From: Coffea arabica
Lineage: Eukaryota; Streptophyta; Magnoliopsida; Gentianales; Rubiaceae
Assembly: GCF_036785885.1 (NCBI RefSeq)
Contig: NC_092323.1
Location: forward strand, 6,952,501-7,016,500
Direction: 5' to 3'
DNA: 64,000 nucleotides
The notes below the pieces were generated by a model. That model was not told the DNA's origin. It was given only the letters and a program-made list of their open reading frames with translations, and did no database searches. The position numbers were made by a program, and so were the translations under genes. Of the stretch, positions 38,157-52,903 are shown in pieces; the first letter of the stretch is position 1, and each line of letters opens with the position of its first letter.

Positions 38157-39089
38157 GGTTTTTTGAAAGTGATTTTTTTTTTCCCTATATTTTGCGAAAG
38201 GGGAGCAAAGGTAAAACTTAAAAGAGGGAGTAGAGCAGTGGCCTCCGCCGGTAAAAGCCTGCCGTACAACAACAAGAGAAGTGGTGCGTTGGAATTTTAA
38301 GCCCCAAAGCCAGAAACAAGGAAAACGTGCGTGGTGCGGGAGCCGGGGAATTTCTACTTTTGGAGCAACATTTTCTAATTTCTACTCCATTGCCGCCCTG
38401 CCGCAAATTTGTCCTCTGTCTGGTCAATCACAGCCGTTTCTTTTTCTTTCTTTTTTTTTTTGGTAATAAAAGATTGCATAAATAAAAATTTTAAGTCCGT
38501 ACATCACATATTTGTTTGGGAAGGAAGGGCCCCTTAAATCATCACACAAAATAGTTCCTAGCTGGGGAGGACAGTTATGATAAGAGTGAAAAAGTCGACA
38601 AAAAGATTTCCACCCTTAAATCATCACAGCCGTTTGATTTTGCATCATTTTAACCTTTCTTCCTCAGCTCAACTGCACGAAGAACGAATGAAAGGAGAAA
38701 GAGAAGAAATTGGAGCATTGTATTTGACGATTGCCATCTTATTTTACTGGTTAAAGAGTCAAAGAACAAAAAATAATAATAATAATAATAAAAGACGAAG
38801 CAAAGCAAACACTTGTCCAGTTTTAAAGGTGTTGAAGGCTTGTTTGGGGAGTTATTAGAGTCAAAAGCTGTTATTATTGAGTACTAATACACAAGGATAG
38901 TCCTCGATCTTCGTTTTAAAATTTCTCATACAAATTCTATTAATCTTTTTTTCTTGTGCACCAATTTTAAAAGTATCTATTGGTGTTGCTATGAAACTTT
39001 TGTATTGTGGATCGTATTTTTCTCTTCAGAAAAATAATTCGCGAAACCATCTTAATGCGAGAGAAACTTTGAAGTCTGCATGTGTCAAA
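38157..39089. other. Promoter side of the coiled-coil gene; otherwise nothing clear
   Basis: The gene ending at 38156 starts here on the minus strand, so its promoter and leader fall in the first few hundred bases. A short AAT triplet run lies near 38772-38790. I saw no other gene. Confidence 0.45.
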
Positions 39090-39098
39090 TCGATATAA

Positions 39099-39163
<65 letters not shown>

Positions 39164-40783
39164 AAGTCGTATTTTCATTCTTATTCCTTCATGTTTTTTC
39201 TTTCCTACGTGGCTTAATGAGACGACAAGTAGTTTTCTAATAGGATTCTTAATAAATCATATATATATATATATATATAATAAAGTCTTATTTTCATCCT
39301 TATCCTTTTAGTTTATCTCTTTCCTACGTGGCTTATCGACATAGCAAGTAGGTGCAACGCGCTCTATGAGTTAACTCCCTAATAATCTACGCTATTCTAT
39401 CTCTCTTTTTTCTCTTGACTTTACAATTCTAGATAATCCTTCCATAATTATCTCTTCCATCCTCTCACCTTTTTTCCCTTAATCCTAATCGTCAAGCCTA
39501 AATTTTCAGGGGATTAGTATAAATAATTTTGAATTTTGTTTTTAACTTTATCTCATCTTCAACTCAAAAGTTTGAAATATCAATTCAAATATTAGATTAT
39601 CTTTATCAGATTATCGCTATCGAAGATACTCTACATTTTTACTCATATATATGGTTATCGATCTATTACTTGTCACTTTATCAAGCAGTGCAGCTGTTTA
39701 CACTTTTTCACAATGTTTTTGGAAATATTTTTTTTTCAATGTAAGGACCGGATTTGGAACTTCGTTTTTATTCCCTTCAATACAAGGACCGCAGTTGGAC
39801 TTTGTTTATGCTCGCTGTATATGGTCTGTAATTTCCTACACTTTTTTCATAACTAGATCATTGAATTTGAATTTTCTAATTCTTCAAAAGTTACGATTTG
39901 GTTTTTATTTCTGACAAGATTTTTGTAATTAATTTGTTATTTCAATTTATGGATTTACTCTTCAATTTAAGTAGAACATATATTATTTTTTTGGTTAGTG
40001 ATTTAGAAGTGGCCTTTTTAAACTATGTGTTTTCACACGATTTTTTAATTGCCTTTGACAATTTATTAATTGTCTTCAACAACGTATTAATTTTTTTCAT
40101 TTTTTGGGTTTCTGGGGTTAAAAAAATTTTGTGCAGTTTTTAATGTTTTTTTTTTAGATTTTGATAGATAGCTTCTAAAGAACAAGAAGGTGTCATTGAT
40201 TACATAAATGGCAAGACATCAAGTTCATTGTCATACAGCAGTTCACGTCATGCAATATACATCAGATTATTTAGAATTTTTATATTTTTGACTTAATAGC
40301 AAAATACATCTTATGTTTTCGTTTTGGTTTCTATTAGCCATGAACAGATTTAGAAGGTTGATATGTTTCTGTGACTTGATTGATTCTGAATTATTATCTT
40401 TTATTAATATTTCATTCGACTTCTTTTCTTTTCACATTAACCTTTAAAGCCATTTATATTAAGTACCAAAATTGATGTTTTGGTAACGGGTTGGCCATTC
40501 TTTTGTTTACAAAAAATCAGCCAAGATTTGATCTTCTCTATTTTCAAGTTTTTGAATGTCATCATATTGTCGATTTTTTTTTTTTTACATTTCGAATTAT
40601 TAATCACTGAATTAGATGTTTAAATTTACATTATAAGACTATTTTTTAATAACAATGTATTTAAGAAAAGTTATAATAGATTATACAATAAGTTTTGTAT
40701 TTTATGAAAATATTTTTATGAACTACACTAAATAATTTATTATTTTTTAACAATTCCCATTCAACGAATGGGTACAAAACTAG
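39090..40783 (+). mobile_element. Non-autonomous Helitron
   Basis: The right end has the Helitron signature: a hairpin CCCATTC-AAC-GAATGGG (40756-40772, perfect 7-bp stem), 7 nt, then CTAG (40780-40783) followed by T. The left end begins TC at 39090 after an A, giving the A^T insertion expected. The 1694-bp interior has no Rep/helicase frame. Near the left end the text ATAAAGTCNTATTTTCATYC, continuing to CTTTCCTACGTGGCTTA, occurs twice (about 39161 and 39280). That looks like a duplicated Helitron 5' end, or nested insertion. Two TA tracts sit in the same positions of both copies. Confidence 0.75.
39102..39161. repeat. (TA)n microsatellite inside the Helitron
   Basis: About 60 bp of uninterrupted TA just inside the Helitron left end. 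A shorter run (39259-39280) occupies the matching place in the second copy of the 5' end. Confidence 0.9.
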
Positions 40784-41266
40784 TTGTAGTAGAAATTCAA
40801 CCTTGTGGAATTAAAAGTCTTAAGAGTGTTGGTGATAAGAAGTGTGTTTTCTTTTCTTTTCGCATTTCTTTTTTTTTTCCCCGTTTGAAGGGAAGGCCAC
40901 TCTTTGAATTAGTTTCATTTCACCTTCTTTCAACAGTTAAATTGGAGTGAAAATTGGACAATAGGATCAATAATCAATTGATATATACCATCTTCCCATG
41001 TCTTGATCTTGGTGCTACATAGTGTTTTTTTTTTTCATTTTTTTTCCCCTTAGATCGAGTTTAAAGACTTTGATGCATCTTGGCTCGTAAGTATAATTTT
41101 ATATTATCATAATCCAATGAGTTTTTAGAAAAATCAGGTTCGAGGTTTGCTCCGATCGTCAACTAACCACTTCTTACGTACATTATTACCAAATGTATCC
41201 TCGAAAGAATTGATTGTATAAGATCAGTATTTTTGGAGTAGTTACCAAATAAATAAGATAAAGAAA

Positions 41267-41329
<63 letters not shown>

Positions 41330-41535
41330 GATAACGTTTCAGTAATAGAAGGATTTGATTTATTAAACGATCACAAGAAAAATTAACGTTAGAGAGTGAA
41401 AATATCAAGGCAACTAACGAGGTTGATAATTCCATGTGTACTAGATTCATGATTCTCGCAAGACATATTGGAAAAGGACGAGAGGACCCTGATCGATCGA
41501 GGATGTTAAATAGAAGCTAGCAATCCCGAAAGAGA
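40784..41535. other. Intergenic with a long (TA)n tract
   Basis: No gene seen. A pure TA run of about 58 bp fills 41269-41326. Confidence 0.6.
41269..41326. repeat. (TA)n microsatellite
   Basis: Uninterrupted AT dinucleotides, about 29 units, between the Helitron and the MIR169-like pair. Confidence 0.92.
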
Positions 41536-41539
41536 AGGC

Positions 41540-41672
41540 CTATAATGATGAGAAGCGTCTGTCAAATGAGCAAGGACGACTTGCCATATCAAAATCAGAA
41601 AGGCTTTGAACGCACGCAGGCAGTAGGAGGCAAGTCATCCTTGTTGGCGATGAAACCAGAGTCTCCTCCCCA
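41540..41672 (-). ncRNA. MIR169: MIR169-like precursor, copy 1
   Basis: On the minus strand, the 5' arm at 41647-41627 contains CAAGGATGACTTGCCT, 16 consecutive bases of miR169. The four 5'-most bases differ from the family. The 3' arm (41587-41567) reads GGCAAGTCGTCCTTG, the usual miR169-star form, and the arms pair through about 15 bp with one G:U. miR169 guides cleavage of NF-YA transcription factor mRNAs. A TATA-like ATATATATAT sits on the minus strand at about 41966-41977, roughly 300 bp upstream of the hairpin. The altered 5' end could weaken target recognition or mark a new isoform. Confidence 0.6.
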
Positions 41673-42260
41673 TTTTAGCCAACTCTTTCTACCAAAATGT
41701 TGATCCAATTAAGCCAGAAGTACGTCTTTTTTCTTAACGCAATTGATCGAATTGCTCAATATTCAAGACTGTACCCTAAGAAGACAATAAAAAAAATGCA
41801 GGGCTTACGTGAAGCACAAGAGACATAAACTAGTGGAGTACTACGTAACTTGAAGCTGCATGCCAAGCTACAGGTGAAGAGAGTGCTACTGCATGTAAGA
41901 CCTCCCTTTCAAATGGGATTCCATGAAATTTTCTTGTGCTTCGATGATGAGTTCATTACAAGTTACATATATATATGTAGAGCTACAGAAAAGGAAGATG
42001 GGGGTCGACGATCTCGCAGTTTGAGCTCCCCTAACCGAGATTTTCCTCAATAATTATTATGCAATGAAAGAATATATTCTACCTGTGCTACAGGAGAGGA
42101 GGGTAGCTAGGGGCCCCGACTTATCTTCTTCAGTCTTCATGTCTTACAACTTGATACGATGGGAGAACAGAATTTCAACGTAAAGGTGCCCTTCACTTTC
42201 TTGCCTCTGCTGCCTCTCGTGAAACTTCAATGTTGGCAACTTGCCCGGAATCAATTTCCC
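41673..42260 (-). promoter_or_regulatory. Leader and promoter block of MIR169 copy 1, duplicated at 44723-45190
   Basis: This segment aligns along most of its length with the one upstream (minus strand) of the second hairpin. Shared words include GTAAGACCTCCCTTT, GAATATATTCT, AATTTCAACGTAAA and CCAAGCTA-type text. The similarity shows that the duplication covers the transcription unit and promoter, not only the hairpin. The frame at 41850-42053 lies inside and is not considered coding. Confidence 0.5.
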
Positions 42261-44587
42261 TAACAAATCAAATGTTTAAGGGACTTTTTTTCCCTTTTTT
42301 TTTTGTTGGATTAAAGAGAAAAGTAAACATTATAAAGAGGAGTACATAGTAACGCCACTGACACAACATCTGCCAGGAGACTTAGAGTCAACATTAAAAT
42401 TGTAATCAACTCCCCAATGTGCTAAGAATCAGCACAATCAATCAACTCCCCAAGTGTTTTTACAATAACATCCCTAAAAAAAAAAAAAAAATCCCCGAGT
42501 GCCAACTTTCACATTTGAGTGACATTTTTTCTTAATAAGAGGAAAAACTACACTGATAATCATATGCAAATTATTTGCAAATTCTTACAGCAAAAATTAA
42601 AAAAAAAACACTGAAAATGCAGAAATTTGTTAATATTATACATTCATGTGAGTCTTTGAGCCTTGACGATATTGCGTGTTAATATTATCCAGATTTTGGC
42701 TTTCAGATAATTTGTTCATTTTTTTTGTCAAAAATAAAAAACAAAAAAAGGAAAAAGCAAAATGTTAATAAGTTTGTTCTCATTTGCTATAGTTAAAAGA
42801 TTAGACAACTGTTGTGGTTTTGGCGCGGTTGGTTCGAACTTTTCTTTCTTTCTCTTTTTTTTTTCTTTTGCATTAAATTGAACAAACTTTTTTTTTTCTA
42901 TAAGGGCCTTGCTGTATGTTGTACACGAAATTAAGGAACTAAATTACTAGTTTTACTCAGTTTGTTTCGTTTATCCTTAGTTGGGATATTCCTAGATATC
43001 AAAGTGAGGAGTATTTTCAGTTGGAAATCCAAATTTTTTTTAACCCTCCCTACACCCTTTCCATCCTTGCCACTACTACAGCTACCCAAAATATGATCTT
43101 CTGATCGAGAACACCATTTCTTATCAAGATCGTTCTGAGTTCCCCTTGGTCTTCCTTGTACCATTCTAAGATGCATCTACATCTTAATGTATAATTAGCA
43201 ACAGCCTTCAAGACTTCAATGGCTGATTGACAAAAGATTGAAAGCCTGCTGCTTTTGTTGCCCTGCTGGTCTTCTAAGCTGGCCAGAAAGGGTGTCTTGA
43301 CAAAAATCATCAAGAAGCCAGAAAAAAGTTCGTCATCCCTTGGCATAGCACCTCATAAATTAGTACACAATGTCTGAATTTTCTTCAGGCCTTAGGAGAG
43401 GAGTACTAAAAGGCAACCAAAAAGTCATAAATATAACCGATGGTTACTTGATTCCTCGTCAGACGTACACAAGAGCAATAGAAGCTTTATTGATTTTCTC
43501 CGGGAAAACAGATCACATGTTTTTCATATTATTCGATTTGGAATGATATTCCATTAAGTCAGAGTTTGAGTCTTGCTGATCAAAATCATCGACTAAGGTA
43601 TTTTTAAGGTTATGGACAAGAAAAAATACAGGCTAGTTTTTGCTTTGATGTTGTAGAACTAAACTTGTACGCTAGTTTTTCTTCAAGAAAGCCAATGAGA
43701 TTAAAATGGCACTGCCTTTAGAGAGAGTAACTAAGTCCCAGGTTTCAGCATTGTCAAGGAGTGATCTACTGTTGTGACTAGAGCATATTTGTTTCTTAAT
43801 TTAGAGAAAAACAAGTAATAACAAGGATTAATTCCATTTTGCATCCTTCAACTATACCCAAATTCTTTAAAAAAAAAAAAAAAAAAAGCCTATACCCGAA
43901 TTCTTACTTTGATACCTGAACTTCAAATGGAATGCTTTAGTCTCTAAAGTATAAAATTTGTCACATTTTAGTTCAAAAGAAGAAAACCTATCCTATTTTA
44001 TTTCTTTAAATACAAAGTCAGTCCACTTTAGTTCTTAAATTATAAAATCTGTACACTTAAATATAAAATTTGTTCCATTTCTCTCAACGATTTTGCTTAA
44101 GTGGGACAAATTTTATATTTTAGCGATCAAGTTTTTAATTTTAAAATTTAGGGACCAATGTGTACATCTCATGTACTTGAGAGGTGGGAAGTGAAACTAA
44201 CCCAAAAAAATAATGATGCAATCATCATCTGGCAAGTTGGTCGTGAGTATGTGATGTAGCGTTCATATAAATATGGTAACCTGATTACAGCTAGTTCAGG
44301 AAGTCGCCCCAAAAAGAAAAGATGAACAAATTAATGAGCATGTGTTTGATAACTACAAGAATCTGATCCAAAGCGCAAAACAAAATTACAGGTAGAGAAT
44401 GAAAAATTCCATATTTGAACTCAGCGCTCAAGAACTTTATATTCATCTTTAAAGAAAAAACTTTATATTCATCTATCCAAAACCTATAACATCAATGGAT
44501 TCTTTTTCTCTTAGTCCAGGAGGGGGTTACCGAATCAGCTTGATGGAGGATGCCAGGTAGTAAAAATTCTGAAAGAGGATGCCAAGA
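42261..44587. other. Spacer between the two MIR169-like copies
   Basis: Includes a possible MITE at 43827-44206 and a minus-strand open frame of 98 codons at 43050-43346 whose product matches nothing I know. The rest is AT-rich with homopolymer runs. No gene is supported. Confidence 0.45.
43827..44206. mobile_element. Possible MITE, GGATTAATTCC ends
   Basis: The left end GGATTAATTCCATTTTGCAT and the reversed right end GGGTTAGTTTCACTTCCCAC are weakly inverted. The interior is AT-rich and contains inverted copies of the phrase ATAAAATTTGTCACATTTTA / TGGGACAAATTTTATATTTT. No clean target duplication was found. Confidence 0.35.
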
Positions 44588-44722
44588 ATGACGAGGAAAG
44601 CCTGTCAAGGTAGCCCGGACGACTTGCCTGCAAATCCATTAATCAAGAATTTACACTTGTACATGGATGGATCTTGAAGGATGAAGAGGCAAGCCATCCT
44701 TGGCTACGAAACAGGAGTCTCA
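44588..44722 (-). ncRNA. MIR169: MIR169-like precursor, copy 2
   Basis: On the minus strand the 5' arm (44706-44686) begins TAGCCAAGGATGGCTTGCCT, which differs from a common miR169 form only by G for A at position 13, within this 20-base stretch. The 3' arm (44631-44611) reads GGCAAGTCGTCCGGGCTACC, a star strand with a one-base length difference. The loop region also pairs (AATCCAT with ATGGATG). A TATA box, TATAAATAGA, lies at 44980-44971 on the minus strand, about 250 bp upstream of the hairpin. The predicted target class is NF-YA. Transcription from the minus strand is preferred because of the TATA box and the better miR169 match. Confidence 0.68.
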
Positions 44723-44970
44723 TCCCCATTCCAGGCATTTCTTTCTATAAAATGTTAACCACGAATTATATCGAAAAGGTATACAAGTGCACTCTTGACT
44801 GATAACGATCCCGATAACTCAACGGAAAAGGGGTCTTGCGTGAAGAAAAAGAGACATTGGTCAAGTGGCCGCCAAGGCCAAACAGCATGAGGCTTCTTCA
44901 CGTAAGACCTCCCTTTGGAATTATTGAGTTGGTCTTTTTCTTGTATGCTGATGATCGTCTGTTTCAAGTG

Positions 44971-44980
44971 TCTATTTATA
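44971..44980 (-). promoter_or_regulatory. TATA box for MIR169 copy 2
   Basis: TATAAATAGA on the minus strand. The start site expected 25-35 bp downstream would give a primary transcript in which the hairpin begins at about nucleotide 220. Confidence 0.5.
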
Positions 44981-45199
44981 GCAACAGAAAATGAAAGATG
45001 TGAGGCTTCGGAATTAGATGATGTGCAAGTTAGAGCTAGCCAAGTAACTTTCTTCACTATTATTTTCGTGAAGGAATATATTCTCTTCCTGTTTCAGGGG
45101 TGCAGAGGATCCCAACTTATCTAGTACCTCATGTTCGTACAGCTGAAAGATGATAGGAGAGCTAGCCGAATTTCAACGTAAAAGTCCCATTAATTCGCA

Positions 45200-47032
45200 C
45201 GTTTTGTTGGCAACTTGCACCGAATCATTGCAATAAGTGCAATGAATTTCCTTTTCCATATCTGGTCAATGTTCAGTAGAATCATTGCAATTAGCGCATG
45301 GCTTGAAACCTGGGACCTCTTCAAAACCCGAGCAGCCAAATAAAAAGGGGGGGGGGGGGTGTAACTTAGTAATGTGTAACTTTTCTTCCTTCGGCTAGTT
45401 CACTTAGTAATGTGTAGGATCAAACCATGATATTATCTGCTGTCAAATTCCCAGCTATATAACTTCTCAATGTCCTGGACATATTACTGGCACTTGCAAA
45501 GTCACACTAAAGCTTTTCTTTTTCTTTTCTTTCTTTTTTTCAACTAAAGTTCATGTTAAGGGAGAATTTCAGTTGAAGAAAGAAAATTCAGCAAAGCAGT
45601 AGTGTTAACTCAGATGGCAAAGTCGTTCATTTATTTATTATTTCGGTGAAATGTCAGTCGTTTGTGAACTTTTTGGAGTTTGGACTGTTGAAACCAAGTT
45701 GGATTTGCAACGTTGTGCTTCTTTTTCTTTTTTTTTTTTCTTTTTTCTTTACACGCTTCGTTGAGATTATCAGATAAAATTCTCCTTAATTTGCTTTTTT
45801 AATTAGCTGGGTTGACTTTAGACTGTACCCAGTGGGTCTGAATGTTCACGTAAGTGCTGCTATATCTGTAGTCCTTTGCATAAATAAAACTGACAATAAT
45901 ACGAATCACGTCTGTTTTCTCTCTGCCTGCTTTATCCGTTTGGATTTTATCCTAACTTTAGGTGGGCTTGATTCGTATTAGATTGGAGTGATAATGAGAT
46001 GTATTCGATATTCTGTACCGATAAAGAAGGTTATACTGCAACAATAGACACCTCAGCTGATCTCTCGTTTCTATTTCCCTAATTCATGCTTCTAGACGTC
46101 GTTGACTTATGGGGGCATCCTGTCCTGTCCAGTTAGTTTCCGGTTAAACCTTTCTGATTCTAGCTCAATCTTCATGCATTATTAAGTACGATTGCAGGTT
46201 GGAGAAAGTTCTATAACAAATTCTTAGTCATCAAGATGATTTTAACAATTCACTTGATAAAATCAAGAAAATTTTCTAAGATTTTAGATGGGGCAAAATA
46301 GCGGCTGTAAATGAAATTACCAAAAGTCCTTCAGGGTTAAAAAGCATTAGCCAAAACTTGGGGCCGGCTGCTACCAACTCCTGCCGCAGTGGATTTTGTG
46401 GTAACTATCAGTTCTAGGAACGCTGGTCCTGCGTGCCTTGCCTCAAATGACTCCTTCATATTGTTTTGAACCGTCATCAATAGTTTGATTCGCCAACCAA
46501 CCCATTAATTGGGATCGTTCATGCCTGAATTCCAGACAGCCTCTATGCCTGTCGACATGCTTGCCAAGGTAGACGGAGATGGAATTCCTTCGAAGCACCG
46601 TATCAAAGAGTGTGACAGCATCATGCAGAGACAGCCGCGCGGAAAATGCGAGTGGAACAAATACCCAGCTTTAGCACTACTACATGCATTTGTCTCGATC
46701 AAAAGAGTAGAGATTTTACAGCAATCCAACTCTGGTACTGAATCTTCTAGTATTACAATTTTCAGTGCTTCTATCTACCTTTCTAATTCACAGCGTACAG
46801 AAGTAGAGCTAGTCAACTTTTAGCACTTGCTACTGAATAGTTTCTAGGACTTTTTAGACATTGTCAAGCATCTGCTTAGTCGCTATCCAGTTGGTATTGG
46901 CACAGTCCTATACATTCTAGAACAATACCGAGGCCAGATTCAAAACCGCAATGATTCTTCTTCTTCTTCTTTTTTTCTCTTTTTTTCCTTTTTAGTGATA
47001 CACCAACACTGTATGTGCTATATACTACATTG
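45200..47032. other. Intergenic, no gene recognised
   Basis: Frames on both strands at about 46505-46823 overlap one another and carry no family motif. The sequence is otherwise AT-rich with a G run at 45349-45359 and T/C runs. The right edge includes the 3' UTR of the HSL2-like gene. Confidence 0.5.
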
Positions 47033-51240: not shown

Positions 51241-52903
51241 TTTCTTCTGTTAATTAAACTACCACCCCACAAACCGCAACTACTAGAATGTATAATGCAA
51301 TCTATCTAAAGAAAATTGAGTTTGAGGAAATGATGGGCTAATTCGATGATGAAATCGTGAAAATGAGAATTATTCATGATTTGTATTTAGCCATTGGATT
51401 TGAAAGACGGCAGCAGGCAACTGGCAAGTAGTGCATGGCCATGGACAGAGTAACACGTGCAGGCAGATTGGGAGAACCGCTGGAAGGGGGTGGAGGTAGT
51501 GAGCTAATTAGTCTACTCATTCTTGACTTAGGATTCTTAATTTATGGTGAATCTTGATAGACTAAGGTCAAAATATCTTGATAGACTACATCGATACTTG
51601 TATTCTGTTCACATGTGAAGGGCTGGTCATAGATGGCATTTAGTGTACTAAAAATTTCCATGTGGAGATGAGAAAGTTAGCAATAATATGATAAAATCGA
51701 CAATGATTGTCAAAGTAGGTCTCAACGAGTCGAGTCCGATCGAATTTTAATTTAATTGAATTGAGTCTCAATTTCATTTTATTAAATTCGATTAGAATTT
51801 AGTGTAAAACTTGAGCTCGACATCAAATTCGCTTGAACTAGTTTGCAGGATTCACAATGATTATCATTTTTTTTTTGGAAGCAAATGATTGTCAAAGATT
51901 GGTGGGAGTGAATTAGGCGGATTAAAACTGAAAGGTAAGGAAATGAATTTTTCCAGAAACACATTATTCATTATTTGGTCATAGACGGAAGATTGATGGT
52001 TTTATATGCCTTTGTAGATAGTGTAGAACATAAGAGGGGCATGTCTCATGTTTACAAATTACAACTGCTGAGAAGAAGATTGCCCTTTGGGAATACCATT
52101 GCTTGTTTGGGGTGGATATCAACCACTGAGCTTGGCTCAGTGGCCACCAAGGAGGAAAAAAACCTCATCTGTTTGGATTATAAGTGGGGATTCAAATCAC
52201 ACATGCAATAAAAAAAAATCAAAAGTGGTGTCAAATCACCCTTTTGGTCTAGTCTCTAACACAAGTCTGTTTAGATTTTCCTGAAAAAAAAATTTAGGAT
52301 GGATATCTTTATTATATTTGGATCATCCATGAACCATGGCCCCGTTTGATAAATGAGTATTTAGATATTTGTCTAAAATTTTACCTTCTTGTAGTAGTTG
52401 TATGAATAATTTGTAAGATAAAAATTTTTTTTTTAATTTTCTCTCTCTCCCTCTTCCCCCTCTCCCATGCTACTATCCCCTTCCCCCGACGCGATCTGAT
52501 CTCACGACTAGATTGAGCAAAGGGGGATAGAGAGGGAGAGGGGAGGAGAAAGGTAGTGGGGGAGGAAGAGGAGCGGAGATAGGTGGCAGACGAGAGGAAC
52601 GGAGAAGGAGGGAAGAGGAGAAAAAAAAAAAAGGTGGTCGTCTGGCTGGCGGCAAAGGTGGTGGTGGGTTGAGGTGGAAGAAAGAAGAAAAAAAATTTTT
52701 AATTGTTTTGGGCATTTTGAATTGTATAGTTTAAAATTTTTGAAAATTTTTTTAAGATTCTTGTAATTAAAATTATTAAAAAAATTGATGTGAGACAAAT
52801 TTAGCAAAAACTCGCTTTGCCAATCAGGCCCATATTTCACCATGTAACGATGATTTCCTTCTCCATGATTTACTTGTATTTTCTTGTGTCTTAGAAAGTC
52901 TTA
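51241..52903. other. Promoter side of the HSL2-like gene, then repeats
   Basis: The first few hundred bases are upstream of the HSL2-like start. From about 52339 to 52833 there is a possible transposon relic (GGCCCCGTTTGATAA left end, GGGCCTGATTGGC right end reversed) containing a purine-rich patch. Frames at 52473-52843 on minus are pyrimidine-rich shadows of that patch. No gene is seen. Confidence 0.4.

Follow-up and report, generated by a model that had tools for sequence, protein, structure and literature searches.

A 64,000-nucleotide stretch of the Coffea arabica genome (C14:6952501-7016500; hereafter, the window) carries two miR169-like hairpins, both on the minus strand and 3,059 bp apart. 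The miR169 core, AAGGATGACTTGCCT, is present without mismatch at 41628-41642 (minus strand) in the hairpin that we call copy 1 and with one mismatch at 44687-44701 (minus strand) in copy 2. When up to three mismatches were allowed, the window contained seven matches to AAGGATGACTTGCCT, compared with a mean of 2.1 expected, and seven was reached in 1 of 100 shuffles; besides the two cores, they comprise both opposite arms and three dispersed sites. The interval 41.5-45.2 kb contains no open reading frame of 120 or more amino acids. Two of the five window proteins scanned matched Pfam families, namely a class-V aminotransferase, which we take to be NFS1-like, and a leucine-rich-repeat receptor kinase. 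When both copies were compared with the window by blastn, they matched only each other and no third copy; nor did blastn at E 1e-5 reveal a third copy in the C14 sequence adjoining the window (100 kb, half of it on each side), where the 14-base core occurs at two places, each only with two mismatches.

Among the 4,227 Rfam families compared, MIR169_2 on the minus strand is the top family for both hairpins. Copy 2 scores 46.5 bits (E 6.2e-11) at 44597-44720, just below the MIR169_2 gathering score of 50 bits, and copy 1 scores 31.8 bits (E 8.3e-6) at 41571-41643, with only partial coverage of the model. The plus-strand scores are 27.9 bits for copy 2 and 24.2 bits for copy 1, so that neither hairpin reaches the gathering score on either strand. 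For copy 2 this miss is real, but it concerns a database threshold rather than a feature that defines the family. A scan of the same 100 kb of flanks at the gathering threshold gave no Rfam matches, although the two known hairpins also fall short of that threshold and similar copies would therefore escape it.

Folding revealed that the minus strand of both hairpins is more stable than shuffled sequence. Over the segments delimited by an earlier sequence-only reading of this DNA, copy 2 folds at -52.5 kcal/mol (z -5.7), which none of 200 shuffles equaled, and copy 1 at -42.2 kcal/mol (z -2.7), which 3 of 200 shuffles equaled or bettered. Longer segments revealed long lower stems in both copies, and the extended hairpins are more stable still: copy 2, at 44572-44746 (minus strand), reaches -74.6 kcal/mol (z -6.66), and copy 1, at 41525-41700 (minus strand), reaches -61.7 kcal/mol (z -3.79), with none of 200 shuffles as good in either case. 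Energy alone does not single out these hairpins: among 5,110 135-base segments of the window, 5 reached -52.5 kcal/mol or better and 86 reached -42.2 kcal/mol or better; the raw energy of copy 1 is thus unexceptional in the window, and the case needs homology as well as folding. Core matches, Rfam and folding together confirm the two hairpins 3.06 kb apart with a minus-strand miR169 core that the sequence-only reading had described, and the first rank of minus-strand MIR169_2 for both supports its view of a tandem MIR169 pair in that orientation. Elsewhere, 52426-52585 contains the most stable fold among the 5,110 window segments scanned (-59.6 kcal/mol); Rfam gave no hit for this region with E up to 1.

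The predicted mature miR169 of copy 2, UAGCCAAGGAUGGCUUGCCUC, lies in the 5' arm at 44686-44706 (minus strand) and departs from the common miR169 sequence at two positions, 13 and 21; the single central change previously ascribed to this copy is the one at position 13. The arm is of the (U/C)AGCCAAGGAUGACUUGCC type and is identical to Arabidopsis miR169i.1 at 19 of 20 aligned bases, which none of 1,256 background segments equaled. Within the hairpin, 19 of the 21 mature-arm bases are paired and two are unpaired, and the predicted miRNA and its star lie in opposite arms of one stable hairpin; criteria for plant miRNAs set a limit of about five mismatches in the duplex. The star arm (44608-44629, minus strand) pairs with the mature arm, but lacks one base opposite AA. 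In both copies the star arm retains a U across from position 13, which suggests that A was probably the ancestral base at this position and that the G of copy 2 is derived. The core of the mature arm in two spellings and six other strings from both hairpins were unmatched in the literature searched, a search that miRBase and supplementary files lay outside, so this is no proof of novelty.

Complementarity to NF-YA was scored on five published sites, all from plants other than the host: four soybean sites with 5' RACE support (PMC3481472, Table 3) and one predicted Arabidopsis site (PMC4354979). Mismatches counted 1 and G:U pairs 0.5, doubled at positions 2-13, so that lower scores are better. 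Copy 2 scored 4, 4, 5, 3 and 2.5, compared with 2.5, 2, 3, 4.5 and 1.5 for an ordinary miR169, grape miR169e (PMC3145640); it is thus slightly worse at four of the five sites and better at one. Copy 2 is also the best-scoring of all window 21-mers on both strands. With G in place of A at position 13, an A:U pair becomes G:U at four of the five sites, and the fifth, which has C, gains a G:C pair.

At the former mature-arm position of copy 1 (41627-41647, minus strand; CCAACAAGGAUGACUUGCCUC), a 3-base insertion adjoins the core. Alignment with copy 2 and with ordinary miR169 places three extra bases between GCC and AAGG, accompanied by nearby substitutions; the statement of the sequence-only reading that copy 1 differs at its first four bases is therefore right in register, and alignment resolves the difference into an insertion plus substitutions. 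The alignment of copy 1 with Arabidopsis miR169i.1 covers only a 16-base core and does not extend to a miR169-type 5' end. In the canonical register 6 of 21 bases are unpaired, namely the first four and the last two, more than the roughly five allowed; the 15 bp core stem forms the paired run and is flanked by unpaired stretches. On the same five NF-YA sites, copy 1 scored 9, 9, 10, 11 and 7. Besides copies 1 and 2, three unrelated window 21-mers score 7 or lower on NF-YA sites (6.0, 6.5 and 7.0), and none of the 16 copy 1 registers tested (5' ends 41640-41655) beats the NF-YA score of the canonical register. Complementarity to NF-YA, the known target of miR169, is thus retained on these sites of other plants by copy 2 (2.5-5, compared with 1.5-4.5 for ordinary miR169) and lost by copy 1 (7-11, at background level).

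The similarity between the copies extends upstream of the hairpins, as had been proposed. Minus-strand sequence at 41737-42274 in copy 1 aligns with 44761-45244 in copy 2 at a score of 190, while the best of 500 other window segments reached 47, and three separate blocks (hairpin, leader and promoter region) each score above all 300 controls. In the downstream direction, a wide test was not significant (score 43, with controls up to 124; n = 500) and a narrow test was borderline (31, with a control maximum of 30; n = 300), and we therefore claim a duplicated unit from the hairpin to 42274/45244 only. Inter-copy identity over ungapped columns is 86% in the miR169 arm, 79% and 75% in the lower stem, 76% in the star arm and 64% in the promoter region, and it falls to 33% in the loop, 48% in the leader from the inverted repeat (see below) to the hairpin, and 48-49% across leader and downstream flank. 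These identities indicate that the duplication is old and that the hairpin arms changed more slowly than the rest, a pattern of the kind expected if selection maintained the hairpin during at least some of the period after the duplication. A TATA box, which the sequence-only reading had placed at 44971-44980, is present as TATAAATA at 44980-44973 (minus strand), 227 bases upstream of the extended copy 2 hairpin. It is confined to copy 2, because the aligned place in copy 1 reads CATATATATATG, which contains TATATATA and lacks TATAAATA; the octamer occurs seven times in the window, both strands counted.

Between this TATA box and the copy 2 hairpin lies an inverted repeat, GGTCTTGCGTGAAGAA / TTCTTCACGTAAGACC, at 44832-44909, with 16-base arms that are 94% complementary and 46 bases apart. 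A fold of 44829-44921 is more stable than shuffles on both strands (z -3.8 minus, -5.1 plus), while the equivalent region of copy 1 folds barely better than shuffles (z -1.1 and -1.3), and a repeat search detected the leader inverted repeat in copy 2 only. Between copies, the arm stretches are 83% and 77% alike and the spacer 49% (ungapped columns). No Rfam family matched the repeat with E up to 1, and six strings from its arms were unmatched in the literature searched. We considered a second miRNA at this place and rejected it, because the fold is largely lost in copy 1, Rfam offers no match and the literature searched holds no printed precedent; possible identities are a paired DNA element and a leader hairpin. 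We regard it as very unlikely that the locus makes three small RNAs, one per hairpin, from copy 2, the leader hairpin and a copy 1 with new 5' sequence; if true, duplication of one MIR169 gene would have seeded new small-RNA families.

A genome search with the copy 2 hairpin returned at least one other match, which is 97% identical and lies at C13:5276705-5276838. The surrounding C13:5241001-5289000 is collinear with window positions 7133-54839 in 20 blocks of at least 150 bp at 88-97% identity. This counterpart locus has both hairpins, and the mature arms are identical to those on C14 at 21 of 21 bases in both copies, copy 1 insertion included, an identity without statistical weight because the 2-5% divergence of the locus predicts about one change or fewer. 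Since the copy 1 insertion is common to C13 and C14, it predates their split. Between C13 and C14, the copy 1 hairpin has 3 substitutions in 176 bases (1.7%) and three indel events, one of them in its star arm; the copy 2 hairpin has 5 substitutions in 174 bases and one indel event; and the spacer has 49 substitutions in 2,042 bases (2.4%) and 17 indel events. The copy 2 star arm differs from its counterpart by one substitution and one indel. With so few changes, selection cannot be demonstrated for either hairpin, and the substitutions do not favour decay of copy 1 over that of copy 2. A hairpin fold persists in the C13 version of copy 1 (-69.0 kcal/mol over the segment examined).

The C13 locus also carries an insertion of ~3.77 kb (C13:5270074-5273840) that parts the copy 1 hairpin from its upstream region. 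The insertion is flanked by a 5-base duplication, GTACC, has TG...CA ends and is bounded by direct terminal repeats of 592 bases with 100% identity; it is a young LTR retrotransposon. Its position corresponds to window 41775-41778, ~75 bases upstream of the extended copy 1 hairpin, and it would thus disconnect copy 1 from its old promoter on C13. A tandem repeat with a 36-base period lies in the interior of the element. Separately, ~2.2 kb of the window at 38986-41195 corresponds to ~80 bases between aligned blocks in C13.

Together, these data make it quite probable that a MIR169 gene underwent tandem duplication long ago, with copy 2 most likely a functional gene and copy 1 most likely a decaying MIR169-like copy. 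From the sequence, the duplication, the folds, the complementarity to published sites of other plants and the counterpart locus, we infer a course of events in which RNA polymerase II would transcribe copy 2 from the minus strand, its pri-miRNA would fold into the long hairpin, and a DICER-LIKE enzyme would free UAGCCAAGGAUGGCUUGCCUC or a close variant, which, once loaded, would guide cleavage of NF-YA mRNAs. In copy 1, the three extra bases and nearby substitutions would have taken away the 5' targeting end and the pairing there; with these lost, copy 1 should be neither precisely diced to miR169 nor able to cleave NF-YA mRNAs.

The sequence-only reading had suggested that the pair may make diverged isoforms, but our results do not support two copies that both yield working ones: the 5' end of copy 1 is unpaired, its NF-YA scores of 7-11 compare with 2.5-5 for copy 2, TATAAATA is found in copy 2 only, and the C13 element splits copy 1 from its upstream region. 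A related proposal, neofunctionalisation, would keep both copies functional, with a copy 1 small RNA that silences other mRNAs through its new 5' end. We think this unlikely. Copy 1 does retain its 15-bp core stem and lower stem (z -3.79), and its hairpin has only three substitutions in 176 bases relative to C13, but that 1.7% divergence is not clearly under the 2.4% of the spacer, the 6 of 21 unpaired bases in the canonical register leave a 15 bp run between unpaired stretches, and the scores on NF-YA, the only targets scored, are at background level; the LTR element separating the hairpin from its upstream region in C13 weighs in the same direction. If instead both copies were relics and other loci supplied the miR169 of the plant, the Rfam cut-off missed by both hairpins would fit, as would the copy 2 star arm, which is one base short opposite AA and changed again in C13. 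We consider this improbable, given that copy 2 matches miR169i.1 at 19 of 20 bases, has 19 of 21 mature-arm bases paired, reaches a fold z of -6.7 and has kept its NF-YA complementarity.

Transcription of the hairpins from the plus strand, yielding antisense miR169-like RNAs, is highly improbable in our estimation. The hairpins are near-palindromic and have weak plus-strand Rfam matches and stable plus-strand folds (z -4.1 for copy 2; z -3.73 for copy 1, practically equal to -3.79 on the minus strand), but the minus strand has the higher Rfam score by 18.6 bits in copy 2 and 7.6 bits in copy 1, the lower energy in both copies and the TATA box. Moreover, only the minus-strand arm of copy 2 fits NF-YA well, the best plus-strand scores being 10 for copy 2 and 9.5 for copy 1.

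A tandem MIR169 pair with one probably functional and one probably decaying copy has described parallels, and the locus is an ordinary further example of this duplication-and-decay kind. In rice, miR169n and miR169o are reported as a tandem pair with 3,707 bp between the mature miRNAs and conserved surroundings, between two annotated genes, with salt induction and an NF-YA target identified by 5' RACE (PMC2670843). The coffee locus shares with it the tandem arrangement of two MIR169 genes, but the rice duplication is called very recent (PMC2670843), whereas the copies here are old and one is without its targeting end. Soybean has tandem MIR169 genes among 'MIR169-like' genes that lack an accepted mature miRNA, which its authors read as gene birth and death (PMC3481472). 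Tandem copies with a MIR169-like neighbour are common to both species, but the soybean clusters, as described, have more copies each, vary in orientation between paralogous loci and come with small-RNA data. The coffee pair seems to be a tandem MIR169 locus at an intermediate stage, in which copy 2 is apparently intact and copy 1 appears to retain a fold after loss of its targeting end; together with the C13 counterpart, in which the element with identical LTRs lies between copy 1 and its upstream sequence, it would be well suited to tracing how a plant miRNA gene dies.

The Arabidopsis MIR169i-n cluster is likewise of the UAGCCAAGGAUGACUUGCCUG type and comprises six genes by their letters, with A at position 13 of the mature miRNA (PMC2812943, PMC2945783), unlike the pair of copies here and the G of copy 2. 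A lower stem is a further likeness, and that of Arabidopsis MIR169m is described as yielding extra small RNAs (PMC2945783). Compared with miR169i.2-3p, the lower stem of copy 1 gave a match that is only suggestive (17 of 1,256 background segments as good), and in copy 2 the similarity is absent (337 of 1,256). We rejected lower-stem homology to Arabidopsis miR169i.2, since, across eight published small RNAs and two copies, no match except that to miR169i.1 survives the number of tests (best 17 of 1,256). Between the two coffee copies, at 44044-44135, lies an AT-rich inverted repeat with weak matches to MIR6224, MIR9563 and MIR6440, far under the family cut-offs, and this element is perhaps a MITE-like relic.
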